From contig CAKUDE010000005.1 in the NCBI GenBank assembly GCA_934645175.1, forward strand, positions 1 through 64,000: DNA of 64,000 bases, given 5' to 3'. The stretch is from an uncultured Oscillospiraceae bacterium. GTDB taxonomy: Bacteria > Bacillota > Clostridia > Oscillospirales > Oscillospiraceae. Within the stretch, counting starts at the first letter, position 1; each line of letters starts with the position of its first letter. Of the stretch, positions 4,977-59,299 are shown piece by piece. Below the pieces are notes generated by a model, which worked only from the letters and a program-made list of their open reading frames with translations, ran no database searches and was not told the DNA's origin. The position numbers and the translations under genes were made by a program.

Positions 4977-5216
4977 TCAGACAAGTGCAGCCGCAGCGGC
5001 CTTGACCGCGATGCCGCAGGCCTCGCCGAGCTGCCGCATAGACGGCACGCTGACAAGCCTGACACCCTTCTGGCTGCACAATTCGCGCAGCGGCGCGACG
5101 AGCGCCGGGTCTGCGTCGGCAGCAAAAAACACAACGCGCACGCTGCCGCGCGTAAGCGCTCTCAGGATCTGCTTGACACCGACGAGTCTCTCGCCGGACT
5201 GTAGCTCCTCAAGCAC
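4977..5216 (-). CDS. Ribosomal L7Ae-family kink-turn RNA-binding protein
   Basis: A 79-residue protein of the L7Ae/L30e/YbxF family, which binds kink-turn motifs in RNA; the gene just before rpsL in Firmicutes is usually of this kind. The features are the VVFFAADADP strand-loop, the helix LRELCSQKG and the VPSMRQLGEACGI motif that contacts the kink-turn. The start is a GTG at 5216 with GGAGG about 11 bases upstream; no ATG is available. It is the first gene after a strong promoter, so rpoB-rpoC are not directly upstream here, unlike in many relatives. Confidence 0.88.
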   Translation of the reverse strand: MLEELQSGERLVGVKQILRALTRGSVRVVFFAADADPALVAPLRELCSQKGVRLVSVPSMRQLGEACGIAVKAAAAALV

Positions 5217-36749: not shown

Positions 36750-37134
36750 GTAGAATCATGTCGAAGAAACCCACCGGGCGGCACATAGCCGCGCCGACAC
36801 GGCGCTCCCCTGCCGGATTGCCGAAGCTCCCCACGCGTAGGGGGACAATATGGGTCAACATCGAATCACAATTAGATCAGAGTCTATATAGCAAAGATTA
36901 CTTTTACTACTCTTATTGATCATTTCACAAGTTCATGCCGCGGGGCACTTTCGGTTATAAAGGAACCAACTTATAAAACTGAGCTTTTAACTCAACCAAT
37001 AAGGCAACAGAAGTTGCCAATCGCCGCAGCGGGCGATCTTCGGCATTCGACCCGGCTGTCCGTATGGCCTCAGCCGATGCGGCGCATCGGCGGTCGTTCA
37101 ATCCTGCTTCGGAACACTGTCCCAATTGAGATCA
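36750..37134 (-). promoter_or_regulatory. Long structured 5' leader of potABCD, candidate riboswitch
   Basis: The 582-base gap between potA and the YitT gene holds no convincing gene. On the minus strand a transcript from about 37134 would have a leader of roughly 470 bases with many stems: CCGATGC/GCATCGG (near 37085), GGCAAC-TTCT-GTTGCC (near 37015), CCCC-TACGCGT-GGGG (near 36840), GCGCCG-TGT-CGGCGC (near 36807) and GCGGC-TATGT-GCCGC (near 36790). It ends in the terminator at 36714-36749. The layout is that of a riboswitch or attenuator. I could not match it to a known class; a GGGGAGC plus GCCGCC pair recalls the ZTP riboswitch only loosely. Confidence 0.5.
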
Positions 37135-42801: not shown

Positions 42802-42912
42802 AATTGCCCCTTTCCGCAGTCCTCGCTGCACAAAAATGAACATCTGTTTTTCGGGTCAAGCATCGTCTCCTGCCGCAGCGGGAGACCACCCATTCACGTG
42901 TTACGCGCGATT

Positions 42913-44357: not shown

Positions 44358-46310
44358 ATGGAACCGATATTCAAGGAGCTGGAGCAGGCCGCGCGCAAAA
44401 GCTTTGAGATGGTCTGCTGTATCGATCTGCACACGGAAACGCTTCGTGTACTTTACGATGAGTCGCAAAAGATTTCCCCGGAGGCCACGCTGGAATACGC
44501 GGCTGTCGCCGAATACTATGTTGAAAAGAATGTTGTCGAAGCCGAGCAGCTCCGTGCTTTGGCCGATCTGCGGCTTGATCGGATCCGTGAAATGCTGGAA
44601 AGCGCCTCCGCCTACCGCGTTTTCGTAACCGTTCTGAATCGCGCCGGGCAGCTTGCCTACAAACGTCTGACCTTCTTTTATCACGACGCGGAGCGTCGCT
44701 ATATCGTCGGTTCCCAGATGGACGTCAGCGGTGTGGCGCGCCGTTATGAGACAATGCTTCGAAGTATGCGCCGTGAAAACTTCCGCGATGTCCTCACCGA
44801 TGCATACAACCGCAATTATTACGAGACGAACATCCGTTTTCGTTCCTTCAGCGGGGGCGTTATTATCATCGATCTGGATGACCTGAAGCTGCTCAATGAT
44901 TCCTTCGGGCACAAAACTGGAGACGAGGCGCTTTCCGCTTTGGCAAAGCTCATTCTGCCGCGGCTCGGAAAGGATGATATTCTTGTCCGCTATGGCGGCG
45001 ATGAGTTTCTTATTTTTCAGCCGGACGTCACAGCCGAGGCACAGGAAACGCTGCTGCACGATCTTCGCGAAAGCGCGTCCCAGCTACACCCGACGGAGCG
45101 AAGCGATCTGACGCTTTCCTTCTGCGCGGGCGCCGTAACGGTACATGACACGCTTGCCTCAGAGGCCGTCTCTCACGCCGACCGTCTGCTTTACCGCGCC
45201 AAGGCGCAGAAAAACTGCTATGTGACCGAGCGTGGCATGGAGCGGAAGGATCTCGCCCCCGCTGCGGCAAAGCCCCTCATTCTGATCACGGACGACTCGG
45301 AGCTGAACCGTATGCTCCTGTCGGATATGCTGCGCAGGGATTTTCAGATCATCGAGGCCGAGGACGGCCTGCAATGCCTTGCCATGCTGGAAAGCTACGG
45401 AAAATCCGTCTCCATGCTTCTTTTGGACATTCTCATGCCGCGCATGGACGGCTTTGAGGTGCTGGCCGAAATGAATCGGACAAAGCTGATTGAGGATATT
45501 CCCGTCGTTCTGATTACGGTAGACAATTCCGATTCCAATCTCCGCCGCGCCTATGAAATGGGTGTAGCCGACTGTATCGGGCGGCCGTTCGATTCCCGCG
45601 TCGTCTACCGCCGCATCCACAATATTCTCCGGCTTTACGGCGCACGAAACGCGATGACGGCTTCGCCGGACAAGCGCAACCTGGAGCGTGTCTGCCGCGT
45701 AATGACGCAAGTGCTCGGCAGCGCTTTCGGCGCAAGCAGCGGGGAAAACAGCTATCACCTTGCCAACATCAGCCGCATTACGGAACTTCTGCTTGAGCGG
45801 CTCCTTCTGAAAACGGAACGCTATGGCCTGGTCTGGAAGGACTGCACCCTTATTTCCATGGCAGCCGCCTTACACGACATCGGAAAATTTGCCGTTAACC
45901 GCACCATTCTCGGTAAACCCGGCAAGCTCACTGCGGAGGAATTCGAGGAGGTCAAGCTGCACACGATCTACGGCGAGCAGATGCTCCGCTCGCTTGATGA
46001 TTACTCCGTCGAGCCTGTTTTAAAAATTGCGGCGGATATTTGCCGCTGGCACCACGAGCGCTATGACGGCGGCGGTTACCCCGACGGGCTGACGGGCGAT
46101 GCCATCCCCGTTGCCGCACAGGTCGTTTCTCTGGCGGATGTCTACGACGCGCTTGTCAGTAAGCGCGTCTACAAAGAAGCCTATTCGCATGAAACGGCGA
46201 TCCGTATGATCTTCTCCGGCGAGTGCGGCAGCTTCAACCCGCTGCTGTTGGAATGCCTGCGCGAGACGGCACTGCGTATCCGCCGAGAGATCTATTTCAG
46301 CAATCACTGA
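44358..46310 (+). CDS. GGDEF - response regulator - HD-GYP protein
   Basis: A 650-residue cytoplasmic signalling protein. Residues 1-130 are an unrecognised sensor-like region. A diguanylate cyclase domain (about 135-300) has an intact GGDEF at 213-217. A receiver domain (about 310-430) has the phospho-acceptor D357 in LLLDILMPRMDG. A C-terminal HD-GYP phosphodiesterase domain has HD at 506-507 (ALHDIGKF), then HHERYDGGGYPDGL. It could both make and break cyclic di-GMP under receiver control, although the product is not proven by sequence alone. AAGGAG lies 5 bases before ATG 44358. The next gene starts 18 bases after its stop. Confidence 0.92.
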   Translation: MEPIFKELEQAARKSFEMVCCIDLHTETLRVLYDESQKISPEATLEYAAVAEYYVEKNVVEAEQLRALADLRLDRIREMLESASAYRVFVTVLNRAGQLAYKRLTFFYHDAERRYIVGSQMDVSGVARRYETMLRSMRRENFRDVLTDAYNRNYYETNIRFRSFSGGVIIIDLDDLKLLNDSFGHKTGDEALSALAKLILPRLGKDDILVRYGGDEFLIFQPDVTAEAQETLLHDLRESASQLHPTERSDLTLSFCAGAVTVHDTLASEAVSHADRLLYRAKAQKNCYVTERGMERKDLAPAAAKPLILITDDSELNRMLLSDMLRRDFQIIEAEDGLQCLAMLESYGKSVSMLLLDILMPRMDGFEVLAEMNRTKLIEDIPVVLITVDNSDSNLRRAYEMGVADCIGRPFDSRVVYRRIHNILRLYGARNAMTASPDKRNLERVCRVMTQVLGSAFGASSGENSYHLANISRITELLLERLLLKTERYGLVWKDCTLISMAAALHDIGKFAVNRTILGKPGKLTAEEFEEVKLHTIYGEQMLRSLDDYSVEPVLKIAADICRWHHERYDGGGYPDGLTGDAIPVAAQVVSLADVYDALVSKRVYKEAYSHETAIRMIFSGECGSFNPLLLECLRETALRIRREIYFSNH

Positions 46311-46327
46311 CTCCGGGAGGGATTTGC

Positions 46328-47131
46328 TTGCGTATCAAAGCTCTGCTCCTGCTCACCGCAGCGCTGTGCATTTTGCTGTATGCCTGCACACCGGCAGTGC
46401 AGCCGACCACCGAGCCGAATGATCCGCTTGTCATCGGCAGCGACGTCTACGAGCCATACTTCTATCTCGACGAAAACGGCTCCTTTGCCGGCATCGATAT
46501 TGAGATCATGACGGAAGCGTGCCGTCGGTTGGGACGCACGCCCGTTTTTCGCCTGATCGAGTGGCAGAATAAGGACGACTATCTGCGCAGCGGCGCGGTG
46601 GATTGCCTCTGCGGCTGCTTTCTAATGAGTGGGCGCGAAGCGCAATATGACTGGGCCGGACCTTATATGCGCACCCGTCAGGTTGTGTTCGTTTCGGAAA
46701 GCAGCGATATCCGTCAGCTCTCCGATTTGAACGGCAGACGTATTGCCGTTCAGCATAGCTCCAAGCTGGAGGAGCTACTTCTGAAGCGCCAGATTCCCCA
46801 GATCACCGACTTGGGGAGTGTTTACAGCTTTGCTTCGATCGAAATGGTTTTCGCTGCGCTCAAAAAGGGCTATGTGGACGCCTGCGCAGGCAACGAGACC
46901 ACCTTCCGTCTCTATACGGAACAACGCGACGGCGCATATCGCGTACTTGATGATAGCCTGTTCACCGCACAACTCGGCATCGGCTTCTATAAGGGAAGCC
47001 CCGACGGCTGTGCAGAAGCACTGACGCATGTGCTGGATGAAATGCGCATCGACGGAACAATCGCCGCGATCCTGCAAGAATACGGCGTAGATCCCGGATT
47101 TTCGCTGAATTTTGACGCAGCAACGGAGTAG
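46328..47131 (+). CDS. Solute-binding lipoprotein, family 3 (amino-acid-binding type)
   Basis: A 267-residue lipoprotein with a lipobox LLYAC near residue 20, a short PTTEPN linker and a periplasmic-binding fold: VIGSDVYEPYFYLDENGSFAGIDIEI, FRLIEWQNKDDYLRSGAVDC, RRIAVQHSSKLEELL and LGIGFYKGSPD. The start is a TTG at 46328 with GGGAGGG 6 bases upstream. No transport genes are nearby. It sits between the cyclic-di-GMP protein and a hybrid kinase, so it probably presents a ligand, perhaps an amino acid, to the kinase (inference). Confidence 0.88.
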   Translation: MRIKALLLLTAALCILLYACTPAVQPTTEPNDPLVIGSDVYEPYFYLDENGSFAGIDIEIMTEACRRLGRTPVFRLIEWQNKDDYLRSGAVDCLCGCFLMSGREAQYDWAGPYMRTRQVVFVSESSDIRQLSDLNGRRIAVQHSSKLEELLLKRQIPQITDLGSVYSFASIEMVFAALKKGYVDACAGNETTFRLYTEQRDGAYRVLDDSLFTAQLGIGFYKGSPDGCAEALTHVLDEMRIDGTIAAILQEYGVDPGFSLNFDAATE

Positions 47132-47139
47132 AAAGCACT

Positions 47140-49653
47140 ATGAAACGCACAACAAAACCAAGGCGAGTCATTTCTGAACCGGTTTTTTACGCCATTATGA
47201 TTGCCATCGGCGTGTTGCTTATCACTCTCGCCTTTCTGCTCAGCACATATGTCAATCTTCGCAAGGCGGAACGGGATGCAGAAAACGCGCTGGCGCATTT
47301 GGAGCGCCAGTGCATCAGCTATCGTGAAATTCTCGCCTCCGATGAGGTAAAAAGCCTGATGCGGCTGGGCGAACAGGCGGACGATCTTGCGCTTCAGCTT
47401 ACGCTTGACAAGCGGGCTGCTACGTCGGAGTATCTGCGCCGTTTTATTGCAACACAGGGGCTGAGCTGCATTCTGCTGATCGACGGACAAATGAGAACGG
47501 AGATCAGCCTCGGCATGACGAAGGACGAGCAGAGCAATGCGCTGGGCTATCATGCCGTCCGCAGCGTACTGGAAGCGCCGGAGAAACAGTATCTTGAGCG
47601 TCTGAGCTACAACGGCCGGATATTCGATGTCGCGATCGTTGCACGGCAGGACGCGCAGGGCGTTATTCTCTGCGCCTATCAGCAGCGTCAGGGCGTGCTG
47701 GAGCAATACCGCGCCACAGTCGAAGCGCTCCTTTCCGGCTTTGAATCGCAAAGCGAGAATCTGCTGTTCATCTCCGACGGTGAGCGGATCATCGGAACAA
47801 ATCAGGATAGATTTTATAACGAAAAGGCGTCGGACATTCCCCTGCTTGAAGCGCTGGAGCAAAGCTCCGACGGCGAAACGCTCCACCGTTTCTACTCGGA
47901 CGATACCGCTTACTTCGGCGCGCGTGCGCGCTACAAGAGCTACACATTGTATGTGGTTTACCCGCAGAGCGCCGTTTTCGACTCACGTCTCAACACCGTG
48001 CTGATTACCTTCTGCCTCTATATGTTTATCATGCTCTGCACGACGCTGCTGCATATTCACATCCGCATCACGCATCTGCGCGATATTGACCGGCAGTATG
48101 AGACCATCCGCGCCATCAGCCGTATTTATGTATCCAACTTGCTGGTGGATATTCGCCGCGACCGGCTTGAGGTGCTCTATCGCCGCAGTAGCGGCGAAAT
48201 GGATGAAGCGAAGAGTGCGAGTGAGTTAATCGAACAGTTCTGCACATCCAGAATTGACCCGCAGTACCGGAACGACTACCGAAAATTCGTCTGCTTCCGG
48301 ACGCTCTCCGAGCGCATGGGCGAGCGCGATTTTCTGGAGTATTCCTTTCCGAATCTCGATGGTATCTGGCTGCTAGACACCATCATTCCAAAGACCTACG
48401 ACGCCGACGGCAGAGTATCGACCTTCCTGCTGGTCACAAAAAATATCAACGAAGAAAAACAGCTTGAGCTGGAGGCGCAGCACCGTATGGAGAGCGCCAT
48501 TGAGCGCGAAGTGCAGGCCGGCCGCGAGAAAACAGACTTCCTGCGGCGCATGAGCCACGATGTCCGCACACCGATCAACGTCATTCTCGGAATGCTGGAA
48601 ATTGCGGTGCGAAACCCGGACGATGCCGCCGTTCAGGCGCACTGCCGCAAAAAGACCCGTGAGGCTGCAGATTATCTGCTGGAGCTCGTCAACGACGTGC
48701 TGACGCTCAACCAGTACAATGACGGAAAGCTCACCGCCGCCAAGCAGCCCTTCTCACCGCGCGAGGCGCTGGAACGGACGCTCTCCATTCTGGAGCCGCC
48801 CGCGCAGCGCAAGGGCGTCTCGCTCGAAGCGTCGGAGATCGACCTGCCGGACGAAACGATCCTCGGAGACGCGCTCTGGCTGCGGCAGATCTTCCAGAAC
48901 CTGCTCGGCAACGCCATCAAATACACACCGGCCGGCGGTTTCGTGCGCTGCACGCTGAAACAAGAGAGCGGACAGCTGATTTTCGATTGCCGTGACAACG
49001 GCATCGGCATGAGCAACGACTTCCAGAAACGGATGTTTGAGCCGTTTGCACAGGAGAGCACGGAAAGGGACTCGGAATACGGCGGGATCGGTCTGGGACT
49101 GTCCGTCGTGAAAAAGCTTGTCGATCTGATCGGTGGAACAATTGAGGTCCGCAGCGCCGTCGGCGAAGGCACCCGCTTCACCGTTTCCCTGCCCTATACG
49201 GCTATGCCGTCTGCGGCACAGCTTCCGGAAACGGTTCAGGCGCGATTGGACGGTGTCCGCATTCTGCTGGCGGAGGATAATGCGCTCAACGCCGAAATTG
49301 CGGAATATCTGCTGAAGGACGCAGGCGCAGCCGTCACCTGCGTAAGCGACGGCCGTCAGGCGCTGCACGCCTTTGCCGCCTCTGCCCCCGGCGAATTTGA
49401 CATCATTCTGATGGACATGATGATGCCCGACATGGACGGCCTTTGCGCCGCGCAGTCGATCCGTGCGCTTGCGCGGCCGGATGCGCAAAGCATACCGATT
49501 CTTGCGCTGACGGCCAACCTGTTCCCGCAGGACATCGAGGCCTGCCGCAGCGCCGGAATGAACGACCACATCGGTAAACCGCTGGATGCGGCGACCTTTA
49601 TCCCCAAAATCCTGAAAGCGCTTCGGAAAGGAAGTGAAGACAATCACACTTGA
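47140..49653 (+). CDS. Membrane hybrid sensor histidine kinase
   Basis: An 837-residue kinase: membrane segment 1 at about 14-37, an external sensor domain of about 245 residues, membrane segment 2 at about 284-306 and an intermediate PAS-like region. The dimerisation domain has the phospho-acceptor H473 in RMSHDVRTPIN. The ATPase domain has the N-box NLLGNAIKYT (near 588-596), DNGIGM and GGIGLGLSVVKKL. The receiver domain has D759 in ILMDMMMPDMDG. Its stop overlaps the Hpt gene, so phosphate would pass H473 to D759 to Hpt. Confidence 0.94.
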   Translation: MKRTTKPRRVISEPVFYAIMIAIGVLLITLAFLLSTYVNLRKAERDAENALAHLERQCISYREILASDEVKSLMRLGEQADDLALQLTLDKRAATSEYLRRFIATQGLSCILLIDGQMRTEISLGMTKDEQSNALGYHAVRSVLEAPEKQYLERLSYNGRIFDVAIVARQDAQGVILCAYQQRQGVLEQYRATVEALLSGFESQSENLLFISDGERIIGTNQDRFYNEKASDIPLLEALEQSSDGETLHRFYSDDTAYFGARARYKSYTLYVVYPQSAVFDSRLNTVLITFCLYMFIMLCTTLLHIHIRITHLRDIDRQYETIRAISRIYVSNLLVDIRRDRLEVLYRRSSGEMDEAKSASELIEQFCTSRIDPQYRNDYRKFVCFRTLSERMGERDFLEYSFPNLDGIWLLDTIIPKTYDADGRVSTFLLVTKNINEEKQLELEAQHRMESAIEREVQAGREKTDFLRRMSHDVRTPINVILGMLEIAVRNPDDAAVQAHCRKKTREAADYLLELVNDVLTLNQYNDGKLTAAKQPFSPREALERTLSILEPPAQRKGVSLEASEIDLPDETILGDALWLRQIFQNLLGNAIKYTPAGGFVRCTLKQESGQLIFDCRDNGIGMSNDFQKRMFEPFAQESTERDSEYGGIGLGLSVVKKLVDLIGGTIEVRSAVGEGTRFTVSLPYTAMPSAAQLPETVQARLDGVRILLAEDNALNAEIAEYLLKDAGAAVTCVSDGRQALHAFAASAPGEFDIILMDMMMPDMDGLCAAQSIRALARPDAQSIPILALTANLFPQDIEACRSAGMNDHIGKPLDAATFIPKILKALRKGSEDNHT

Positions 49654-49993
49654 GACCTTCTATCGATTGCTTGGAGCGGAGGCCGAACAGATCACGCTCC
49701 GCCTCGGCAGCGAAGCGCTCGTGCGGCGCGTGCTGCTGAAATTCCCGGACGACCCCAACTGCGCCGAGCTGGTGTCGTCTCTGGAGCAGAATCGTCTGCC
49801 CGACGCCTTCCGCGCCGCGCACACGCTCAAGGGCATTGCGGCAAATCTCGGCTTTGAGGCGCTGCGCCGCGCCGCCGACGTCGTTACGGAAGCGCTGCGC
49901 AGGCAGGACGCCGACACCGCCCGCAGGCACCTTCCCGACCTGCTGGAAAACCACCGCGTTATCGTTCGCGGCATCTCTCTTCTGGAATTTTAA
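49634..49993 (+). CDS. Histidine phosphotransfer (Hpt) protein
   Basis: A 119-residue four-helix protein with the Hpt signature AAHTLKGIAANLGF, whose histidine accepts phosphate. The GTG start at 49634 lies inside the kinase gene (20-base overlap), next to GGAAAGGAA. It is the last member of the signalling group. The partner receiver may be that of the GGDEF-REC-HD-GYP protein at 44358, which would connect the kinase to cyclic di-GMP (inference). Confidence 0.88.
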   Translation: MKTITLETFYRLLGAEAEQITLRLGSEALVRRVLLKFPDDPNCAELVSSLEQNRLPDAFRAAHTLKGIAANLGFEALRRAADVVTEALRRQDADTARRHLPDLLENHRVIVRGISLLEF

Positions 49994-50022
49994 AAATAAC
50001 TCTTGTTTTTGAAAATTTCCTC

Positions 50023-50051
50023 TTGCATTTTCTGACGAAATGTGTTAGAAT
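50023..50051 (+). promoter_or_regulatory. Promoter of the riboswitch-controlled operon
   Basis: TTGCAT (50023-50028), 17-base spacer, TAGAAT (50046-50051); transcript start near 50058. Confidence 0.65.
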
Positions 50052-50054
50052 ACG

Positions 50055-50128
50055 GCACGCAAAAGAATACTTCGGCAAATCCGTCGAAAGACGGAGACGC
50101 AAAGCTAAGGTGTCTAAACGTTTTTAAC
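50055..50128 (+). promoter_or_regulatory. Cyclic-di-GMP-I (GEMM) riboswitch
   Basis: The aptamer core matches GEMM-I: CACGCA, then CGGCAAATCC, a stem CCGTC (50081-50085) with a GAAA tetraloop (50086-50089) and GACGG (50090-50094). These are followed by the hallmark GAGACGCAAAGC and a GTGTCTAA element. The base aligned to the ligand-contacting G20 is G, which favours cyclic di-GMP over cGAMP (my alignment by eye). A terminator follows 14 bases later, so it acts by transcription control of the downstream surface operon. The sense (on or off) cannot be told without folding. Confidence 0.88.
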
Positions 50129-50138
50129 GCACGATCGA

Positions 50139-50194
50139 CCGGCTGCAAACGGGCACACGAACCGCCGTGTGCTGCTTTGCAGCCGGTTTTTTTT
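50139..50194 (+). terminator. Expression-platform terminator of the cyclic-di-GMP riboswitch
   Basis: CCGGCTGCAAA (50139-50149) and TTTGCAGCCGG (50176-50186) with an inner GCACACG/CGTGTGC stem, then eight T. It lies between the aptamer and the first gene. Confidence 0.88.
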
Positions 50195-50228
50195 GTTTTT
50201 TCCGGGACTTTTGATTGGAGATTTTGCC

Positions 50229-50477
50229 ATGGACTGCGATGTATTTGAAGATCTTCGGGCGGCGCTCGACTGCGAATATGTGTCGGATCTCTGCCTCCGT
50301 GGCGAGTCGAACACACGCCGCGCCATCGCCGCGCTGGATCTTTCGGCCTATTCTCTGGAGAGTCTTTCGGAGCTGTATATCTATCTGTACGGCGGCTGCG
50401 TCGCCTTTCGAAGCCATAGCGAAGCGCGCAGACTGTTTTCAGAAACCATAGAAAAGGAGCGAAAAGAAATCAAATGA
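50229..50477 (+). CDS. Small protein at the head of the matrix operon, function unknown
   Basis: An 82-residue acidic, mostly helical protein without signal peptide or membrane segment: MDCDVFEDLRAALDCEYVSD, then IAALDLSAYSLESLSELYIY. It has three cysteines in the N-terminal part and one later. I do not recognise a family. ATG 50229 has GGAG 8 bases upstream. It overlaps the signal peptidase gene by 4 bases (ATGA), which ties it to the operon; an adaptor or regulator of the secretion step is possible. Confidence 0.7.
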   Translation: MDCDVFEDLRAALDCEYVSDLCLRGESNTRRAIAALDLSAYSLESLSELYIYLYGGCVAFRSHSEARRLFSETIEKERKEIK

Positions 50478-51109
50478 AACGATCCGCAGCAGCGAAAATT
50501 CTGACGGTCGTGGGGCTTGTGCTGTGCGTTGCTTTCGCCTTTTTATTGATGTGCAATATCGTCATCATTGTGAAAGGCGTCGTAAATCCGCAGACCCCGC
50601 CCACCGTATTCGGCATCACGCCGATGGTCGTGCAGTCCGGCTCGATGAGCGGCACGGCCGAGGGGCATCTTGAGGTTGGCGACCTGATCTTTGCCACGCG
50701 CCCCGACGCGGATGCGCTGAAGGTCGGCGACGTCGTATCGTTTATGGACGGGCAGATCATCGTCACGCACCGCATCATCGAGGAGCTTCCCGCCAAGGAC
50801 GGCGAGCGTCAGTTCGTCACCAAAGGCGACGCCAACAATACCGCCGACCCCGCCATCGGCGCATCGAGCATCATCGGCATCTACCGCGCGCGCATTCCGC
50901 ACCTGGGCGACTTTGCAATGTTCCTGCAGAAGCCGCTGGGTATGATCGTATTCATCGGCATTCCGGTGTGCGCCTTTATCGTCTATGACATCGTTCGCCG
51001 TCAGCGCCGCGCAGGGCGCGAGAACGCGGAAAACGAAGCGCTCCGGCAGGAGCTTGCGCGTCTGCGCGCGGCGGCCGAAAAGCCCGCCGAAACCGACGCC
51101 GAGCCTTAA
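50474..51109 (+). CDS. SipW-type (ER-type) signal peptidase I
   Basis: A 211-residue membrane peptidase with an N-terminal membrane segment (about 10-34), the catalytic serine in VQSGSMSG, VGDLIFATRP, VGDVVSFMDGQIIVTHRIIE with the histidine that replaces lysine in this subtype, then a KGDANNTADP motif. A second membrane segment (about 155-175) and a charged Ala/Glu/Arg tail follow. SipW enzymes process TasA-like matrix proteins, and the next gene encodes one. It starts within the stop of the 82-residue gene. Confidence 0.93.
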   Translation: MKRSAAAKILTVVGLVLCVAFAFLLMCNIVIIVKGVVNPQTPPTVFGITPMVVQSGSMSGTAEGHLEVGDLIFATRPDADALKVGDVVSFMDGQIIVTHRIIEELPAKDGERQFVTKGDANNTADPAIGASSIIGIYRARIPHLGDFAMFLQKPLGMIVFIGIPVCAFIVYDIVRRQRRAGRENAENEALRQELARLRAAAEKPAETDAEP

Positions 51110-51201
51110 TTTTCCCGTTGGAAACGTTATCATCTGCGCCGCTTCCCGCCACGCTCCGGCGCAGTCAGATATAAACAGAAAGAATTGGAGGAAATCATTC
51201 C

Positions 51202-52020
51202 ATGAAGAAGAATTGGACCCTGAAGGCCGCAGGCATCCTGCTCGCCCTCACCCTGATCACCTCGTGCTTCGTCGGAGGCACCTTCGCGAAGTATGTTACC
51301 GCGGCAGGCAGCACAAACACCGCGCGTGTCGCAAAATTCGGTGTCGAAGTCAGCGCCGACAGCAGCTCGATGTTCAAGACGAAGTACACGACTGATGATA
51401 CGTCTGCAACCAGCATCACAAACTCTGTTTCTGTAACGTCCGGCGATAGCAGCAAGCTCGTCGCGCCCGGCACGAAGGAAGATAATACCCTGATCTTCTC
51501 CATCACAGGCACCCCCGAGGTGGCTGTCAAGGTTGAAATCAAGCTGGATGTTGTTAGCGATGTTTTCCTGAAGGCAGGAACCTATCAGGACAGAACCAAG
51601 GCTCCCTATAACGATACCTTTGATGTCGCAGAAGGGGGTTACTACCCCGTTGTCTTCACGCTGAAGAAGGGTGATACGCAGATTGCTCAGGGTAATCTTG
51701 ATACTATTGAAACCGAAATTGAGAAGCTGAGCAATAACTATGAGGCAGGAAGCGACTCCACCAAATCTTTGGCCGCCATCGCAGGCGAATACACTCTCTC
51801 CTGGGAGTGGGCGTTTGAAACCGGTTCGACCGACGAAGAGAAGGCAAAGTTCAACGCCGCCGACACCCTGCTCGGCGATCTCGCGGCCAAGGATACCGCG
51901 GCAGCAGGTCAGGAGTGGAAGTGGAGCGACACCGACAATGGTTTCGTGGAAATTACTGCTGACAACTTCTCCACCAATATTGAGTTCACCCTCTCCATCA
52001 CCATCACTCAGATCGACTGA
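51202..52020 (+). CDS. TasA/camelysin-like secreted matrix protein
   Basis: A 272-residue secreted protein with the SipW-dependent type signal region: MKKNWTLKAAGILLALTLIT, then VGGTFAKYVTAAGSTNTARV, where cleavage follows the Ala-rich segment. The mature part has the TasA-like pattern of an N-terminal strand FGVEVSADS, a LVAPGTKEDNTLIFSITGTP segment and a long beta-rich domain ending in EFTLSITITQID. TasA forms extracellular fibres; this is probably the main subunit. GGAGG lies about 9 bases before the ATG. It follows the first SipW peptidase after 92 bases. Confidence 0.88.
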   Translation: MKKNWTLKAAGILLALTLITSCFVGGTFAKYVTAAGSTNTARVAKFGVEVSADSSSMFKTKYTTDDTSATSITNSVSVTSGDSSKLVAPGTKEDNTLIFSITGTPEVAVKVEIKLDVVSDVFLKAGTYQDRTKAPYNDTFDVAEGGYYPVVFTLKKGDTQIAQGNLDTIETEIEKLSNNYEAGSDSTKSLAAIAGEYTLSWEWAFETGSTDEEKAKFNAADTLLGDLAAKDTAAAGQEWKWSDTDNGFVEITADNFSTNIEFTLSITITQID

Positions 52021-52058
52021 GCGTTCTCCCGAATCGCTCTCTCTTTTCCCGATCCGGC

Positions 52059-52087
52059 GCGCGCCTGCCCCGTGGCAGGCGGGCGCT
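52059..52087 (+). other. Strong intercistronic hairpin after the TasA-like gene
   Basis: The GCGCGCGCCTGCC arm pairs with GGCAGGCGGGCGC around CCGT, with no T-tract. It may protect the TasA-like message or reduce read-through, raising the subunit above the downstream proteins. Confidence 0.5.
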
Positions 52088-52161
52088 GCGCCGGAGGGCA
52101 GACGCCCGCGCTTTCTCCGAAAAGCGCAGGCGTGTACCCCAGCAGAAAGGAGGCGTCCGAT

Positions 52162-52920
52162 TTGACGCTGCGTAACCGTCTCCGCCCGTGGCTGCTCCCG
52201 ACACTGATCATCCTGTTCATTGTTCAGATTCTTCTGCTGCCCGCCGTTCTCGGCGTGACCTACGCCACGAAAAGCAGCCGGCCGGAGCATATTCTCAGCT
52301 ATTCCTCCGGCGCGCTGCGCTGGGACGCAAACACCTCCGTCAACGAGGACGGAAGCGCTTCGCTCTCTTTTTTCGATACGCTCGACCAAAACGTATCGGC
52401 GGACGGCGCCGACAAAATTCTTGCCCCCGGCACGCAGAAGGACACCGTCGTGCGGCTGAAGAACAATGCGAAGAACGCAATCACCTACACCGCCGTGCTC
52501 TGGATGCGTCGCTCCTCCGGGCTTCTGCCCGTCGAGGCCGCGCTTTCGGGCGAGGGCTTCTCCGACACGGACGAAGCCGCGCTGCCGACGGGTGTGACAA
52601 GTGAGGACGTTCTTCGCGCCGTCTCCGGGACGGTAGGCGCAAATCAGATGCAGGATTTTGACATCGACTGGCTCTGGCGCTTTGAGGCAGACCGCGACGC
52701 GCTCGACACCTATCTCGGCGACCTTGCGGCAAACGGTAAGGCTGCCGACGTGACCCTCGGCTTTTATCTCGTTGTCAACGACGGCGGAAGCGTCAAGCCC
52801 CAGCCGCCGGACACCGGCGACAAGGTGCTTGTATGGGGCTATCTCGTCCTGATGGCGCTCAGCGCCGCAGCGATCATTCTGCTGCTTGTCGGGAAGAAAC
52901 GGAGGAAGAAAAATGCCTAA
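52162..52920 (+). CDS. Membrane/wall-associated TasA-operon protein with sortase-like C-terminus
   Basis: A 252-residue protein: hydrophobic N-terminus (LLPTLIILFIVQILLLPAVL), an external domain with SYSSGALRWDANTSV and the APGTQKDTVVRLKN segment shared in type with TasA-family proteins. A C-terminal PPDTGD (215-220), a membrane segment and a basic tail (GKKRRKKNA) resemble a sortase signal. It may be the wall anchor or cap of the fibre, like TapA in role only. The start is a TTG at 52162 with AAAGGAGG 8 bases upstream; the longer frame from 52072 lacks a site. Confidence 0.72.
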   Translation: MTLRNRLRPWLLPTLIILFIVQILLLPAVLGVTYATKSSRPEHILSYSSGALRWDANTSVNEDGSASLSFFDTLDQNVSADGADKILAPGTQKDTVVRLKNNAKNAITYTAVLWMRRSSGLLPVEAALSGEGFSDTDEAALPTGVTSEDVLRAVSGTVGANQMQDFDIDWLWRFEADRDALDTYLGDLAANGKAADVTLGFYLVVNDGGSVKPQPPDTGDKVLVWGYLVLMALSAAAIILLLVGKKRRKKNA

Positions 52921-53422
52921 GGTTCTGCGTATTGCCGGTCGGGTCGTCAGCGGTATCGTTACCGTCCTGCTTCTGCTCGTCCTGCTGCTCAATCTGTACC
53001 GCATCGCGGCCGAAAAGGTGTTTCATGTGCAGAATCCCACCGTTTTCGGCTTCTCCTCCGCCGTCGTTCTGACGGGCAGTATGTCCGGTGCGATCGAGCC
53101 GGACGATTGGATTCTCACCCGCTCGCAGGACGGCTACGCCGTCGGCGATATCATCATGTACCGCGGCACGGGCAGCACCGTGACGCACCGCATCATCGCC
53201 CTGGAGGACGGCGGCTACCGCACCAAGGGCGACGCCAACGACAGCGCCGACCAGGGCGAGGCGATCACGCAGTTGCAGATCGTCGGCAAGGTGGTTGCCG
53301 TCGTGCCCGGCGCGGGGGCGGTACTGCGCTTTCTACGCTCTCCGCTCGGAATGCTGCTGCTTTTGGCCGTGGGGTTGGGGTTGTATTTCCTGCCCCGACG
53401 GATCCGCAAAGAAACAAACTGA
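52913..53422 (+). CDS. Second SipW-type signal peptidase I
   Basis: A 169-residue peptidase with an N-terminal membrane segment (about 8-28), VVLTGSMSGAIEPDDWILTR with the catalytic serine, VGDIIMYRGTGSTVTHRIIA with the catalytic histidine, KGDANDSADQ and a final membrane segment (about 140-158). It is shorter than the enzyme at 50474 and lacks its charged tail. It overlaps the previous gene by 8 bases. Two such enzymes in one operon suggest different secreted clients. Confidence 0.92.
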   Translation: MPKVLRIAGRVVSGIVTVLLLLVLLLNLYRIAAEKVFHVQNPTVFGFSSAVVLTGSMSGAIEPDDWILTRSQDGYAVGDIIMYRGTGSTVTHRIIALEDGGYRTKGDANDSADQGEAITQLQIVGKVVAVVPGAGAVLRFLRSPLGMLLLLAVGLGLYFLPRRIRKETN

Positions 53423-53441
53423 CAAAAAGGAGGCTGCCGAT

Positions 53442-54056
53442 ATGAAGAAAAAGCGTCTGCCGCTGCGGGCGTGGCTGCTGTATCTGGCAGTCCTGTCCTT
53501 TGCTCTGACCGGCGTTACCTTCTCCAGCTACCTCACCTCGACCTCAACCGGCGACGCCGCGCGCACGGCATGGTTCAAAGAGCTGCGCATCGTTGAAAGA
53601 GGCGACTACACGGGGCAATTGATTCCCGGCGTCGATCTTGAAAAGCAGGCGACCGTCGAATTCGACGGCAGCGAAATGGCCTGTTATGTCTTCCTTCGGA
53701 TTTCCGGAGAAGACTGGGCGTTGGATGTCGATCGTTGTACATATCACTATAGATCGCTGCTGACCTGTTCGATCAATCCCAAATGGACCTATCTGACCGA
53801 CGACAAAAACGGCGCGGTTTTTTACTGCATTGTCAGCGCCCTCGACACGCTGAAACAAGACGTATTTGCCGACAAAGGGACGATTACCGTCAGCGATTCT
53901 TTGAAAAGAAGCGACCTTACTTCCCTTCCCAAAGGCTTCGGCCTGACGATCTCCGCAACGGCGGTGCAGTATCACGGCTTTTCTGAAGGACTCGCCCCCG
54001 GATATACCGATACCCAACGCGCCCTCAAGGCCTGGAACACCGTAAACGCAAAGTAA
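53442..54056 (+). CDS. TasA-like secreted protein
   Basis: A 204-residue protein with a signal region like that of SipW clients: RLPLRAWLLYLAVLSFALTG, then VTFSSYLTSTSTGDAARTAW. The mature part has short strands (ELRIVERGDYTGQLIPGVDL), two cysteines (TCSI and YCIV) and an end in LKAWNTVNAK. It is probably a minor or accessory fibre subunit. AAGGAGG lies 8 bases before the ATG, 19 bases after the second SipW gene. The antisense reading frame of 584 codons across it is a shadow. Confidence 0.75.
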   Translation: MKKKRLPLRAWLLYLAVLSFALTGVTFSSYLTSTSTGDAARTAWFKELRIVERGDYTGQLIPGVDLEKQATVEFDGSEMACYVFLRISGEDWALDVDRCTYHYRSLLTCSINPKWTYLTDDKNGAVFYCIVSALDTLKQDVFADKGTITVSDSLKRSDLTSLPKGFGLTISATAVQYHGFSEGLAPGYTDTQRALKAWNTVNAK

Positions 54057-54071
54057 TGAAAGGTTGACCAC

Positions 54072-57000
54072 ATGAAAAAAGCTCGCTTTTTCCGTATTTT
54101 CTGTCCGGTTCTGCTTGTTCTGGCCATCGCCGCACTGACCGTCGGCGTTCTGGCAACGGCATCGCCGCGCGTCCGCATTACGCACATGGGCAGCGAGATT
54201 TCCGGACTTCTCCTGTCGCAGGAGGAAAAAACGGCGCTCAACGCCGAATGCGACCGTCCCTCGTCCGCGCTGCGCTGGCAGATTCTTGCCGACGCGCAGG
54301 AGCAGCTTTGGGTGGACATCCACGGCGCGTCCGAAAGTACGCTTACGCTGTCCTACGCGCTGGTCGGTTCGCTGCTCGACAACTCCGGCAGCGCCTACAT
54401 CCGCTGTGCCGCGACCGTAGACGGTGCGCCGGTTGTTTCCGAACCGGTCTGCGTGACCGTCGCATACACGGCGCAAAGTCTTTCCGCCGCCGCGAGCAGG
54501 CTCTCCGCTCCCGTCCGCAGCTCCCCCGTGACGCAGGAGGACGCCCCCTCGGCGGGCGAGTATATCCAGATAACGATCAACTATCTTGACGCCGTTTCCG
54601 ACTTGCCGATCTATACGCCGTATTATGCGCAAATTGAAGCGAAGAAAGCCTACGCATCGGACGTCATTTCCCCCACTTATCTCGGCTATGCACCCTATTA
54701 TAACAAATCCAATCCCGAAAGCTCCGATGCCCTCTCCACCGACGACGCCTCCATTGTCCATATCTCTCTTGACGACACTCACGAGGCCGGAAAGTATATC
54801 GTAAACGTTTACTACAAGGCGATCGATGTCCCGTATGCCGTTCGCTACTTCTTTCAGAACATCAACGACGATCTCTACACCGAAAACTCCGATCTCTACT
54901 GGGTCGGCACAGCAAAAACCGGAACAATTATCGATAATTCTACGCTGACCGATCCCGTTGCGGACAGGGTTCGTGGCTTTACAAAGCTTTACCACTACCC
55001 GGAAGCCGTCGCTGCCGACGGCTCGACGGTTTTCGAGTGTTATTACGACCGCAACTATTATATGCTTAAATTCGACGCGGCGGGTGGCCACGGCACCGAA
55101 ACAATCTACGCCAGGTACGGCACGCCCTTCGTTGCGCTCGACCCGACCCGTTACGGCTATAAGTTCATGGGTTGGGATTCCGACGGGGACGGCAAGGCGG
55201 ACGAAGTACCTGCGACCGTTCCGACGGAAAACCGCAGCTACACCGCGATCTGGGTGCCTGATAACGCAAACTATAAGGTCGTCTATTGGCTGAGCCACGC
55301 CGACGACAGCGGCTATGCCTACATTGGCAGTCGATTGGCTAGCGCGCCCTCCGACTCCACGGTCAACGGTTCAGATGACCTGACGAAAGACACCTATATC
55401 TGCGGTTATGCCGATGGCGAAGACGGCCACAGCCACACGGACGACTGCAAGCCTGCGGATTTCCGGCACTATGTGTTTGATCGTGCCGATCAGAACGTCA
55501 CCGTCAAGGGCGACGGCTCCACAATCGTCAATGTCTATTACAAGCGCAAAGAGTATACGCTCCGCTTTTTCTACGCCAAAGCAACCACGTCAAACGGCTC
55601 AACGAGCTATCAAGTCATCGGCGGCTCGACCTATAGCTTTGGCAATACGAGTTTTACACAGCCAAATCCCTATACGATTGAAAACCTTCTCGATCAGGTC
55701 CCCACCGGCAATTACGGCAAGGTCAAGGAGCTTCCGGTGTTCACAACGGAATACCAAAAGCTGCTGAGTGAAAAGCTGCGAGATAAATGGCGCACAGGCA
55801 CCGTTACTAGCACAAATGGCTTCGTATTCCACTATTTTTCCATTACCCTCCCCTACGGCGCCGATCTGACGGAGCTGTGGCCCGGCGAGGCGTTCCAGAC
55901 CGTTGAGGTAGATGAAACGCATACGGCAAACGGCGCAGACAAGAATATGGGCAAAGGGCAGTGGGGCAACTACGCCTATCTGGCCGGATGGAACGGTGAG
56001 TTTAAGGTCAAATACTCCGTAGACAATGCCAACTCCACCGTTAAGGGAATGTACCAGCTTCTGGACGACAATCTACTTTATGATAAGCAGTACGGCACTG
56101 CCGACACGGTCAATTTCATCGGCTTCTTCGATAATGGCGCCGATATCAATTGGAGCGTTCCGCGCCAGTGGATCTATAAGATCTATATTCCCAAGCTGAG
56201 CTATGACGAAAACGCTGGGACGGACGTCACCCGCAACGGCATAACCTACCGACTGCTGAAGACCGTTTATACGACGGACGACAATACAATGGATAAGGCC
56301 GGCGCAACAGCGCCTTACGGTCAGACGCAGCCCACGCTGCTCGGCTTTACCGCCGACGGCTGGGAATTCACCAAAAACGATTCTGCCGACGATGGCCGCG
56401 ATTCCTTTACCGCACGCTTTTTCTATAAGAGAAACACCTATAAGCTGACGCTTCACAATCACGGAGAGCTCATCTCCAATGACAAAGATAAGCTGGACAA
56501 CGTCGTCTACAACGCCGTCCTGACCGAGGTGGCAAACTTCGAGCCGCCCTACCCCGCTTCTCTGGAAGCAGGTGCCTACCGCTTCGTCGGGTGGTATTAC
56601 AGCCAGGACGGCTATGCGGGCAGCGAGCTGGGCGAGACGGACACCATGCCGGCGCACAACCTGAGTCTGTATGCCAAGTGGGTTCCGGTCGAGCATACGC
56701 TGCGCTTCTTTAAGTCTTACGACCAAATGCTGCAGTACGAGCGCGGCGATACGCAAATTAAACCGTTTTTTGAGGAGCTTGTTACCCACCGCAGCTATGC
56801 AAAGAAAGTAGACGAAACGCCGACCGACCCAAGCGGCAACAATTACATCTTCGCAGGCTGGTTTTATCTGAAAAACGGTGAAAAAACGGCATTTGACCCG
56901 TTCGATATGGAAGTCACATCCGATATGCATCTGTTTGCCGACTGGAGCTCGCAGGTGCCGCAGCCCTTCCTGATTCACTATTCGCTCTATATTCCGGAAA

Positions 57001-58754
57001 AGGATAACAGTACGCTTGCCGAACTCCAAAGGGCAGCGGGCGACAATCCGGAGGACAACGCCGTCTATCACGTCACCGTAAACGGCGAGACAAAGCGCTA
57101 TGTCTATCTGGACGCCGACAAGGGCTACCATCTTTGCATTGCGGACGATTCCTCCGGCTTTGCCTACGAGGGAAGCACTCGGACATATTACCCCAAGGCG
57201 GGCGATCCGATGAATCAGCTCTACACGGAATACAATTCGGGGTACTACCCCACCTTGGCGAGCCACTCCATCACCATCGCCCCGGAGGATGACAAAACGG
57301 CGCCGAAGGCCAACGTTTTCACCTTCACCTATGTGTACGCGCAGGAAATCTCCTACAAGGTCGAGTATCGCTACGCGGCAACCTCGCAGCTCATCGATCC
57401 GAAGGATCTGAACGGTCTTAAAGAAAACCCCGTTACGAAGACAACACAAAAAGCCGTCATCACGGAGCGTTTCCATGTCGTAGAGAACTATATCCCCGAC
57501 GCCTTCTACAAGCGCCTCATCCTCTCCGTAACGGTAGATAAGGACGGAAATGTCTCCCCCTCCAAGGACAACGTCATTACCTTCTACTATACGAAAAACA
57601 CCTCCAAGGCGCTTTACGTCGTCCACCACCTGATGCAAAAGCTCGGCACTGACGGAACGGACCTTGACAAGGATTTTGAGGAGATCGACGCCCGCATAGA
57701 AGGCATTGCCGATATCAACTCCACGCACTCCATTACCCCGCAGACCTTTTCCGGCTTTACCGTCATGAATACGGCCCGCGTCAGCAACACGACGACAGAG
57801 AGCTACGCTGATGCGTTAAGGGAAACTGACGGAACCTTTTCGATAACCGTCTCGCAAGAGGGTACGGAGCTGTATCTGTACTACACACGCAATACGCAGA
57901 GCTACAAGGTCTACCATCTGCGCCACGGCACGGACATCAGCGATCTTTCCAAGCTGAAATATACGGATGGCACGGATGACGTTTTGGCTCAGATTCAAAT
58001 AATGTCCGGAAAATACGGAGAAACCGTCATCGTCGGAAAGAAGGACGACATTCAGGGCTTCAACTGTGTCTCCGCCCCCGTGCAAAGCATTGTTTTGCGA
58101 AACAACGACGAAAGCAACTACATCATCTTCTATTACGCCCCGTTGGAGTATACGGCGCAGTACCTCGTCTGGAGCTACGGCGGCGGCACGCTCGATCGAA
58201 CGCTTGAGGTCGTTCGGGGCGGATCCTTCCAGGGCTCCACTCCGACGGCACTGGCCGGTTATCGATTTGACGGATGGTTCACCGACGCGTCCTGCACAAC
58301 GCCCGTGGCCGATCAGGCCCTGGTAGACAACGCCACGAATCGGTTAACGCCAAAAACGGAGGCTATGCGCCCCGCACCGGAAACGAATATCTACTATGCA
58401 AAATTCGTCCCCGACGGCTACGGCAGTCTAACCATTACGCGCCAGAATACAGAGGACGAATCCGACGGCGAACAGGTATTCGTCTATCGCATCACGGCGG
58501 TAAACGACCCGAGCTATGTCACCTATGTTACCATCATGGGCGACGGAAGCGTCACCGTCACGGAGCTTCCCTGCCGTGACTACACCGTCGAGCAGCTTAA
58601 TACCGGCTGGTCATGGCGCTATGCGGATCAGTCACAGAAGGCCAGCATAACCAAAGACCAAATGTATACCTGCACCTTTGGCTGCAGCGCCGCAAATGGC
58701 AAATGGCTCAGCGGCAACGCAGAACCTTGGCAGAATCAACGCGGAAAGGACTGA
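54072..58754 (+). CDS. Giant InlB-repeat surface/matrix protein
   Basis: A 1560-residue secreted protein with a SipW-client-like N-terminus (FCPVLLVLAIAALTVGVLAT). The first 170 residues resemble the TasA-type domain of neighbouring proteins. Then come many InlB B-type or MucBP-like repeats, marked by YKVVYWLSH, YTLRFFYAK, GYKFMGWDSDGDG, YRFVGWYYSQDG, YIFAGWFYLKNG and YRFDGWFTDAS, each ending in a (W/F)VP or YYxK strand. The last 110 residues resemble a Cna-B/SpaA-like fold (GSLTITRQNTEDESDGEQVF). No sortase motif or C-terminal membrane segment is present, so it must be held by partners or released. It is the probable adhesive component of the operon. Confidence 0.85.
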   Translation: MKKARFFRIFCPVLLVLAIAALTVGVLATASPRVRITHMGSEISGLLLSQEEKTALNAECDRPSSALRWQILADAQEQLWVDIHGASESTLTLSYALVGSLLDNSGSAYIRCAATVDGAPVVSEPVCVTVAYTAQSLSAAASRLSAPVRSSPVTQEDAPSAGEYIQITINYLDAVSDLPIYTPYYAQIEAKKAYASDVISPTYLGYAPYYNKSNPESSDALSTDDASIVHISLDDTHEAGKYIVNVYYKAIDVPYAVRYFFQNINDDLYTENSDLYWVGTAKTGTIIDNSTLTDPVADRVRGFTKLYHYPEAVAADGSTVFECYYDRNYYMLKFDAAGGHGTETIYARYGTPFVALDPTRYGYKFMGWDSDGDGKADEVPATVPTENRSYTAIWVPDNANYKVVYWLSHADDSGYAYIGSRLASAPSDSTVNGSDDLTKDTYICGYADGEDGHSHTDDCKPADFRHYVFDRADQNVTVKGDGSTIVNVYYKRKEYTLRFFYAKATTSNGSTSYQVIGGSTYSFGNTSFTQPNPYTIENLLDQVPTGNYGKVKELPVFTTEYQKLLSEKLRDKWRTGTVTSTNGFVFHYFSITLPYGADLTELWPGEAFQTVEVDETHTANGADKNMGKGQWGNYAYLAGWNGEFKVKYSVDNANSTVKGMYQLLDDNLLYDKQYGTADTVNFIGFFDNGADINWSVPRQWIYKIYIPKLSYDENAGTDVTRNGITYRLLKTVYTTDDNTMDKAGATAPYGQTQPTLLGFTADGWEFTKNDSADDGRDSFTARFFYKRNTYKLTLHNHGELISNDKDKLDNVVYNAVLTEVANFEPPYPASLEAGAYRFVGWYYSQDGYAGSELGETDTMPAHNLSLYAKWVPVEHTLRFFKSYDQMLQYERGDTQIKPFFEELVTHRSYAKKVDETPTDPSGNNYIFAGWFYLKNGEKTAFDPFDMEVTSDMHLFADWSSQVPQPFLIHYSLYIPEKDNSTLAELQRAAGDNPEDNAVYHVTVNGETKRYVYLDADKGYHLCIADDSSGFAYEGSTRTYYPKAGDPMNQLYTEYNSGYYPTLASHSITIAPEDDKTAPKANVFTFTYVYAQEISYKVEYRYAATSQLIDPKDLNGLKENPVTKTTQKAVITERFHVVENYIPDAFYKRLILSVTVDKDGNVSPSKDNVITFYYTKNTSKALYVVHHLMQKLGTDGTDLDKDFEEIDARIEGIADINSTHSITPQTFSGFTVMNTARVSNTTTESYADALRETDGTFSITVSQEGTELYLYYTRNTQSYKVYHLRHGTDISDLSKLKYTDGTDDVLAQIQIMSGKYGETVIVGKKDDIQGFNCVSAPVQSIVLRNNDESNYIIFYYAPLEYTAQYLVWSYGGGTLDRTLEVVRGGSFQGSTPTALAGYRFDGWFTDASCTTPVADQALVDNATNRLTPKTEAMRPAPETNIYYAKFVPDGYGSLTITRQNTEDESDGEQVFVYRITAVNDPSYVTYVTIMGDGSVTVTELPCRDYTVEQLNTGWSWRYADQSQKASITKDQMYTCTFGCSAANGKWLSGNAEPWQNQRGKD

Positions 58755-58759
58755 GTGCC

Positions 58760-59299
58760 ATGCAAAAACGTCTCAGATGGATCTGTCTGCTGCTCACAGC
58801 GGTGCTTGCCATGAGCGGCATCGGCGTGACCCTGGCGTTTATGTTCCGCCGCGCCGAGCAGAGCAGCAGTCTGGAGGCCGCAGCCGTGTCCTGTGAGCTG
58901 TCGGAAGAATTTAACGATCCGGTCAAAAGCAATATCCGCGTGAGAAATACCGGAAACATTCCCGCCTTCATTCGTATTCGCGTCGTATCGTACTGGGTCA
59001 AGGAGGACGGCAGCATTGTCGGTCATCCGGCGGAATATCCGACGCTTGATCTCCTGAACGACTGGTGGAAGAGCGGCAGCGACGAGGTGTATTACTACCC
59101 CACACCCGTCGCGCCGGGTCATCAGACGGAGGTTTTATGCCAGCCGTTCGAGCTTTCCACGACCACGGACGAACACGGAGTCACGCTCTATCTGGTTGTT
59201 ACTCTGCTTGCTGAGGCGATTCAGGCCTCCCCCGACAGCGCCGCCGAAAGCGCCTGGGGTATCACGGTGGAAAGCGGTATGATCACCGATACACCGTAG
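58760..59299 (+). CDS. Third TasA/camelysin-like secreted protein
   Basis: A 179-residue protein: MQKRLRWICLLLTAVLAMSG, then VTLAFMFRRAEQSSSLEAAA, which fits SipW processing. The mature part has CELSEEFNDPVKSNIRVRNT, NIPAFIRIRVVSYWVKEDGS and a conserved VAPGHQTEVLCQPFELSTTT with one matching cysteine pair. It is the last gene of the operon, starting 5 bases after the stop of the giant protein, with AAAGGA 9 bases before its ATG. Confidence 0.78.
   Translation: MQKRLRWICLLLTAVLAMSGIGVTLAFMFRRAEQSSSLEAAAVSCELSEEFNDPVKSNIRVRNTGNIPAFIRIRVVSYWVKEDGSIVGHPAEYPTLDLLNDWWKSGSDEVYYYPTPVAPGHQTEVLCQPFELSTTTDEHGVTLYLVVTLLAEAIQASPDSAAESAWGITVESGMITDTP

Follow-up and report, generated by a model that had tools for sequence, protein, structure and literature searches.

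A predicted cyclic di-GMP ON switch ahead of eight SipW/TasA-style genes in an uncultured Oscillospiraceae bacterium

The first 64,000 nucleotides of contig CAKUDE010000005.1, from an uncultured Oscillospiraceae bacterium (assembly GCA_934645175.1), hereafter referred to as the window, contain a class-I cyclic di-GMP (c-di-GMP) aptamer of the GEMM-I type, followed by eight genes that include two SipW-type signal peptidases and four TasA-like proteins. I consider it rather probable that the aptamer belongs to an ON switch, placed before SipW/TasA-style genes that likely build a wall-anchored matrix fibre of the TasA type. Riboswitch-controlled adhesin operons are known; what appears to be new is the location of GEMM-I before a whole SipW/TasA-style anchored-matrix operon.

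The leader RNA and the genes behind it

The aptamer exceeds the gathering cut-off (35) of the Rfam model RF01051, covers that model completely (positions 1–87 of 87), and is the sole Rfam match listed at E ≤ 1 between positions 49900 and 59500 (Table 1). A preliminary description of this DNA had claimed a GEMM-I aptamer with its own terminator, and both elements are present, although the interval it gave for the aptamer (50055–50128) is shifted and short relative to the placement by the model. The aptamer carries G at model position 11, which I take to be the position deciding between c-di-GMP and cyclic GMP-AMP (cGAMP), with G in c-di-GMP binders; it is a putative c-di-GMP binder.

Folding of the leader (50058–50200) yields −59.6 kcal/mol, against −38.5 kcal/mol (standard deviation 3.5) for shuffled sequences, none of the 200 shuffles being equally good. 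The 5′ arm of the terminator (50137–50149) is the 3′ strand of the aptamer itself. The free leader prefers the terminator, at −59.4 kcal/mol compared to −45.0 kcal/mol when the aptamer pairs are forced, and in the latter case the leftover hairpin no longer adjoins the U run. In this folding prediction, the terminator and the aptamer folded with its ligand-holding pairs are mutually exclusive, and no separate anti-terminator is visible. Because one strand serves both structures, the layout is that of an ON switch, and the leader is predicted to allow more read-through as ligand rises.

Table 1. Predicted features of the signalling cassette, leader and operon in the window
Feature	Position	Strand	Evidence
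Predicted diguanylate cyclase / HD-GYP phosphodiesterase, internal receiver (GGDEF-REC-HD-GYP)	44358–46310	+	PF00990 5.5e-26, PF00072 2.8e-19, PF13487 3.2e-24
Solute-binding lipoprotein (SBP_bac_3), candidate ligand sensor	46328–47131	+	PF00497 2.1e-20
Hybrid sensor histidine kinase (HisKA, HATPase, REC)	47140–49653	+	PF02518, PF00512, PF00072; SHDVRTP and ILMDM motifs
Predicted Hpt phosphotransfer protein	49634–49993	+	HTLKGIAANLG; overlaps kinase end by 20 nt
Promoter-like TTGCAT-17 nt-TAGAAT, extended −10 TG	50023–50051	+	Read from sequence
c-di-GMP-I (GEMM-I) aptamer	50064–50150	+	RF01051 64.3 bits, E 2.8e-10 over the whole window
Intrinsic terminator	50137–50194	+	50137–50149 pairs with 50176–50188, then U8
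orf1, 82 residues, no assigned family	50229–50477	+	Overlaps sipW1 by 4 nt
sipW1, SipW-type signal peptidase I	50474–51109	+	TIGR02228 78.7 bits; GSM and THRI motifs
tasA1, TasA-like secreted protein, predicted main fibre subunit	51202–52020	+	
TasA-like protein with PPDTGD, membrane span and basic tail, predicted wall anchor	52162–52920	+	
sipW2, second SipW-type signal peptidase I	52913–53422	+	TIGR02228 63.1 bits; GSM and THRI motifs
tasA2, TasA-like secreted protein	53442–54056	+	Custom hidden Markov model (HMM) 1.3e-34, tasA2 being among its seeds
InlB/Listeria-Bacteroides-repeat surface protein, 1560 residues	54072–58754	+	PF09479 7.7e-20
tasA3, BsaA-like SipW-dependent protein	58760–59299	+	TIGR04090 3.1e-7, 30.4 bits

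The eight genes that follow the leader are closely spaced and co-directional, and all of their starts, including the TTG start at 52162, have plausible ribosome sites. Two neighbouring genes overlap by 4 nt and another two by 8 nt, while larger gaps precede tasA1 (92 bp) and the anchor gene (141 bp). The arrangement is as the preliminary description had it; that the eight genes form a single transcript, as its term operon implies, is what I infer from it. The lack of a family for orf1 is also borne out, with one relative found besides itself, at 89% identity. Both peptidases pass the TIGR02228 cut-off (51.85) and possess the Ser and His motifs of SipW/ER-type signal peptidases I, in agreement with their earlier assignment as SipW-type peptidases, but neither reaches the Bacillus SipW equivalog model NF046067 (67.5 for SipW1 and 60.8 for SipW2, against a cut-off of 190). 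The large protein had been described as an InlB-repeat protein, and indeed possesses four Flg_new/InlB stretches (PF09479, 71.2 bits against a gathering cut-off of 27).

In contrast, the sortase-type membrane protein proposed for 52162–52920 has no sortase match in Pfam or NCBIfam, and I rejected that identity. Sortase substrates carry a signature of the (S/P)PxTG type, and the C-terminus of this protein consists of PPDTGD, a membrane span and the basic tail KKRRKK, making it a putative sortase substrate and predicted wall anchor. In an alignment of 26 rows, TGD is at least 90% conserved and the preceding P is found in most rows; in most anchors of the nine loci described below (L001–L009), different residues come after TG. 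Viral contigs yielded no relative of the anchor.

The TasA-like proteins of the preliminary description stand as far as their signals and SipW linkage are concerned, but not as members of a modelled family. No Pfam or NCBIfam model matches tasA1, the anchor or tasA2 at E ≤ 0.01, none of the four TasA-like proteins matches TasA/camelysin (PF12389), and tasA3 lies under the BsaA model cut-off (TIGR04090, 60). In fold searches, TasA (5of2) is at Foldseek rank 2 for the anchor, with a weak E of 0.016, and is not among the 50 matches listed for tasA1. Sequence searches of solved structures with two alignments returned no TasA entry, the best matches (E 0.0045 and 0.099) having unrelated names. The label TasA-like is used here in a qualified sense, for the signal sequences, the SipW linkage and the weak fold matches.

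The nearest relative of tasA1 is 58% identical, compared to 89% for orf1 and 93% for the anchor, and this predicted main subunit seems to change fast. The tasA1–anchor interval (52015–52170) folds into two hairpins of high stability (z −4.95) that lack a U run, in a structure that also pairs the ribosome site of the anchor; these hairpins may hold anchor levels low compared with tasA1.

GEMM-I and the operon in other genomes

A scan of genome contigs with the anchor alignment yielded nine loci (L001–L009), which are thus anchor-selected. Relatives of the anchor occur mostly in Clostridia metagenome-assembled genomes, several from rumen or colon, and the host of the window is likely a gut species. 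Obg is 49–61% identical over nearly its whole length in 15 of 16 genomes compared; in the remaining one, G315, it falls into two pieces, with 66% identity over residues 1–191 and 53% over 247–422. The core order sipW-tasA-anchor-sipW-tasA is found in all nine, with two additional TasA-like genes in L009. The full set including the InlB giant and tasA3, without orf1, is present in one of the nine, L006, where tasA2 matches that of the window at 8.1e-35, and DUF285/LRR proteins occupy the slot of the giant in L001–L003. Genome searches added three loci, giving twelve that possess the anchor gene, one of which (L294) has an altered order. In L009, an operon relative without GEMM-I, a Gut-1 RNA (RF01706, 64 bits) is located at 4936–5014, ∼430 nt before sipW1.

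Among 250 genomes of one family, 44 have an RF01051 match above cut-off, as do 56 of the 247 sampled from another family, while the 14 control genomes have none. The 207 sites merge into 179 loci, 177 of which were read downstream, many ended early by contig ends; the remaining two (L317 and L318) are outside the SipW/TasA HMM scan, while the placement test described below used all 179. GEMM-I stands before SipW clusters in five genomes: that of the window, G003, G286, G320 and G521. In G003, tandem aptamers precede an orthologous operon, and there is a partial second copy. The G286 locus begins with a CBM_2 protein whose signal is SipW-like, followed by a 200-residue protein, a TasA-like protein (with a camelysin match below cut-off) and SipW. 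In G320, an EAL protein comes first behind GEMM-I, followed by two proteins and then SipW, with a divergent GGDEF gene beside them. G521 came from a third sample, partly overlapping the other two, in which 57 of 375 genomes of the order have a SipW1 relative at E ≤ 1e-15; among 30 of those loci that were scanned, GEMM-I was found in two, G003 again and G521, where it directly precedes SipW. In the genomes tested, this proximity exceeds chance: the 100 GEMM-bearing genomes contain 67 SipW genes over cut-off, in 37 genomes and 55 clusters, and 4 clusters in 3 genomes lie at most 4 kb behind a co-directional GEMM-I, where 0.088 would be expected under uniform placement (Poisson P 1.1e-4). These three genomes all belong to the family sample of G003, with none among the 56 of the other family.

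The partial second copy in G003 (L134, L136) lies behind its own GEMM-I, and four GEMM-I sites fall within 1.1 kb on contig C28. This genome therefore shows local duplication of riboswitch units.

Leader logic is not uniform across these GEMM-headed clusters, as judged by folding. The G521 leader looks ON-type, and so, less clearly, does that of G286 (−55.4 compared to −50.1, with a shortened hairpin remaining near the U run), whereas the G003 operon differs, as discussed below. A survey of 155 single-aptamer leaders, the window included, placed the terminator overlapping the aptamer in 63, touching it in 9 and downstream of it in 56, with none found in 27; this survey is crude and serves as background only, with the G320 row (overlap 46) clearly off and the merged-tandem and short-end loci dropped.

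Signalling cassette, proposed mechanism and alternatives

Directly upstream of the leader, and absent from the preliminary description, is a cassette of four genes on the same strand, the last of which ends 70 bp before the aptamer. The first product passes the cut-offs of PF00990 and PF13487 and has intact motifs (GGDEF at residue 234, HDIGK at 527 and HHERYDGGGYP at 586), as expected for a predicted diguanylate cyclase and HD-GYP phosphodiesterase. The lipoprotein has a TTG start with a ribosome site and a lipobox-like LLYAC. The Hpt-like protein shows a weak CheA match (E 0.0027, far under the cut-off), and as a query also matches the kinase open reading frame of L326 (2.5e-13). The domain order suggests a phosphorelay from the kinase to Hpt, and to the receiver of the c-di-GMP enzyme. 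From its adjacency, the cassette may form, together with the leader and the operon, a local circuit from sensor to c-di-GMP to matrix. Proximity of GEMM-I to c-di-GMP enzymes is not rare in the families sampled: a single-sequence search detects a GGDEF or HD-GYP gene in 26 of 190 loci (L133–L322, mostly with GEMM-I).

The mechanism I propose is as follows. The phosphorelay of lipoprotein, kinase and Hpt would set c-di-GMP through the receiver domain of the GGDEF/HD-GYP enzyme; this is the least certain step, and could equally well prove right or wrong. Without ligand, the leader would prefer its terminator and transcription would stop. Binding of c-di-GMP would hold the shared strand in the aptamer and prevent termination, so that polymerase enters the operon and SipW1 and SipW2 are made; the secreted TasA-like proteins would then have their SipW-type signals cleaved by these two peptidases. 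In the fibre, TasA1 would serve as main subunit and the PPDTGD protein as wall anchor, with the InlB-repeat giant and the BsaA-like protein as possible tip or adhesive parts.

Several results weigh against this reading. The aptamer has UU at model positions 8–9, where the consensus is AA. A search for the same gene order behind GEMM elements elsewhere, suggested in the preliminary description, did return the G003 operon, with the same core, but GEMM-I is upstream in only one of the twelve anchor loci (L003) and absent from ten, the twelfth (L295) being cut by a contig end. It is also absent from the 1–1.5 kb examined upstream of L329, L332, L342 and L343, which were found in the order-level search and have sipW and the anchor. 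I thus rejected the riboswitch as a fixed part of this operon type; since most anchor loci lack GEMM-I, the gene module has a broader distribution than the riboswitch. Conversely, custom HMMs detect SipW-type genes within 7 kb downstream in only 4 of the 177 GEMM-I loci, two of them in G003. In this placement test, the 4-kb limit was chosen after the matches had been seen, and the test assumes uniform placement, which real placement does not truly follow. Apart from the window, only the G003 operon combines a GEMM-I leader with this gene core, and its first tandem aptamer looks OFF-type, while the second is undecided, the terminator folding either way. The three G003 aptamers shown carry A rather than G at position 11, presumably the change found in cGAMP-binding relatives. 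G003 thus speaks for a link between RNA switch and operon but, given this A and the OFF-type fold, not for the ON reading with c-di-GMP. Finally, the TasA fold matches are weak, TasA being present but not above unrelated rows, and no such cassette is found beside the other operon loci in the flanking stretches searched.

It is quite improbable, in my view, that the window switch is itself of OFF type or answers another dinucleotide, in which case the matrix genes would be made at low c-di-GMP. This would fit the G003 leader, and the class-I switches tested in Clostridioides difficile, which are OFF, class II being ON there, according to the available text of PMC6200980. However, the shared strand, the lack of a separate anti-terminator in the fold and the G at position 11 in the window all argue otherwise. 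That transcription of the surface genes starts at a separate promoter behind 50194, the leader and terminator not being the control point, is very improbable: a consensus promoter scan lists nothing promoter-like on the plus strand from 50194 to 57976, orf1 lies only 34 nt beyond the U run, and GEMM-I before SipW genes recurs elsewhere. Nonetheless, promoters unlike the sigma-70 consensus would escape such a scan, which also omits the leader's own site at 50023–50051 (its first hexamer is too poor), and the two larger gaps within the operon are in keeping with additional starts. It is rather unlikely that riboswitch control is correct but that the operon encodes adhesins or surface proteins that bind sugars, and not a fibre matrix. 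The InlB repeats, the DUF285/LRR proteins in the slot of the giant, the leading CBM_2 protein of G286, the lack of a TasA family match and the weak fold matches would agree with such products, while the two SipW-type peptidases, the several SipW-type signals and the wall-anchored member parallel the fibre-forming tapA-sipW-tasA and sipW-bsaA systems, as these appear in the accessible parts of PMC9674648 and PMC7395162.

There is close to an even chance that the phosphorelay is an accidental neighbour, without action on the operon. No GGDEF/HD-GYP genes were found by single-sequence search (E ≤ 1e-6) in L001–L009, L293 and L294, or upstream of the operons in G001, G002, G006, G074, G286 and G003 (where the contig extends only 1.9 kb upstream of the main operon), and I rejected conserved co-location of phosphorelay and operon, as it was not found at the relatives' flanks searched. 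The upstream stretches of G001 and G074 do contain a kinase and a receiver gene. The sensor part of the kinase is rare, with distant relatives in 2 of 250 and 4 of 247 genomes. On the other hand, the Hpt stop and the leader promoter are ∼30 bp apart on one strand; five of those six kinase loci adjoin a relative of the solute-binding protein, and one (G179) has HD-GYP, solute-binding protein and kinase in the same order, all with short flanks; and in G320, independently, c-di-GMP enzymes accompany a TasA/SipW cluster headed by GEMM-I. A bolder proposal, which I regard as possible but on balance doubtful, is that 44358–59299 (15 kb) is a self-contained island, running from an outside solute through the lipoprotein, the kinase-Hpt phosphorelay, the two-way c-di-GMP enzyme and local c-di-GMP to the RNA switch and a complete wall-anchored TasA-type matrix, and that c-di-GMP RNA switches were wired to SipW/TasA operons several separate times in gut Clostridia, bypassing control of the Bacillus SinR type.

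Other features of the window were noted. A second repeat surface protein is located near the operon, on the minus strand (39952–42843, 963 residues, with InlB/Flg_new, YDG and CBM_X2 domains). The 159-residue product of 10173–10652 has a weak custom SipW HMM score (1.2e-7) and no Pfam match, and is possibly a third peptidase of the SipW kind. Between 20101 and 27206 are four tandem copies of a gene pair, encoding a 136–149-residue protein with a signal-like start and a 353–372-residue lipoprotein-like protein, which share the motif CTPxVxPSxQPTxxTGEDIFTPTQQPT. The Rfam family SpF59_sRNA is matched at 37040–37096 on the minus strand (65.7 bits, cut-off 37.2), ∼150 bp behind a YitT-family gene.

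Comparison with known systems

The closest likeness to the leader is the Bc2 RNA of Bacillus thuringiensis, a class-I ON switch for the collagen adhesin gene cap, whose product is a single wall-anchored protein, according to the accessible text of PMC4933901. Both combine a class-I aptamer and a terminator in an ON layout with a wall-anchored surface protein, but Bc2 precedes one adhesin gene, while the window adds SipW peptidases, TasA-like proteins and an adjacent phosphorelay, none of which is mentioned in that text. Tandem class-I aptamers, as in the G003 leader, are known from the Bc3-5 switch, which controls cspABCDE in the available part of PMC4759541, whereas the window has one aptamer. 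Riboswitch control of surface structures in Clostridia is also familiar from C. difficile, where flagella, pili and sortase-dependent adhesins are concerned (accessible portions of PMC6200980 and PMC6366702); the class-I switch of the window looks ON, however, and SipW and TasA do not occur in PMC6200980.

As for the genes, the tapA-sipW-tasA operon of Bacillus subtilis and the sipW-bsaABCRSD operon of Clostridium perfringens likewise combine a SipW peptidase with SipW-dependent proteins, which form fibres there, and the latter includes a two-component pair inside the operon (PMC9674648 and PMC7395162, in the parts available). These texts attribute control to SinR in B. subtilis and BsaRS in C. 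perfringens, with no riboswitch, and describe one SipW each, with no mention of a PxTGD anchor or an InlB giant. The preliminary description held that a riboswitch-controlled matrix operon of this kind was not a described system, which needs qualifying as class-I ON switches on adhesins are known. Papers that mention the relevant terms together (PMC2614493, PMC5422440, PMC8470499, PMC7395162 and PMC13082335) describe no such operon in their available text. No published description of a riboswitch-headed SipW/TasA operon was found, in a search that covered few subscription journals.

If the proposed reading is correct, an outside signal would be linked to a protein coat by a direct route that can be tested, with the signal enzymes next door. 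Little seems to be known of how TasA/SipW-type matrix is controlled in gut Clostridia. The occurrence of ON-looking and OFF-looking leaders on similar cargo in five genomes would also allow the reversal of riboswitch logic to be studied.

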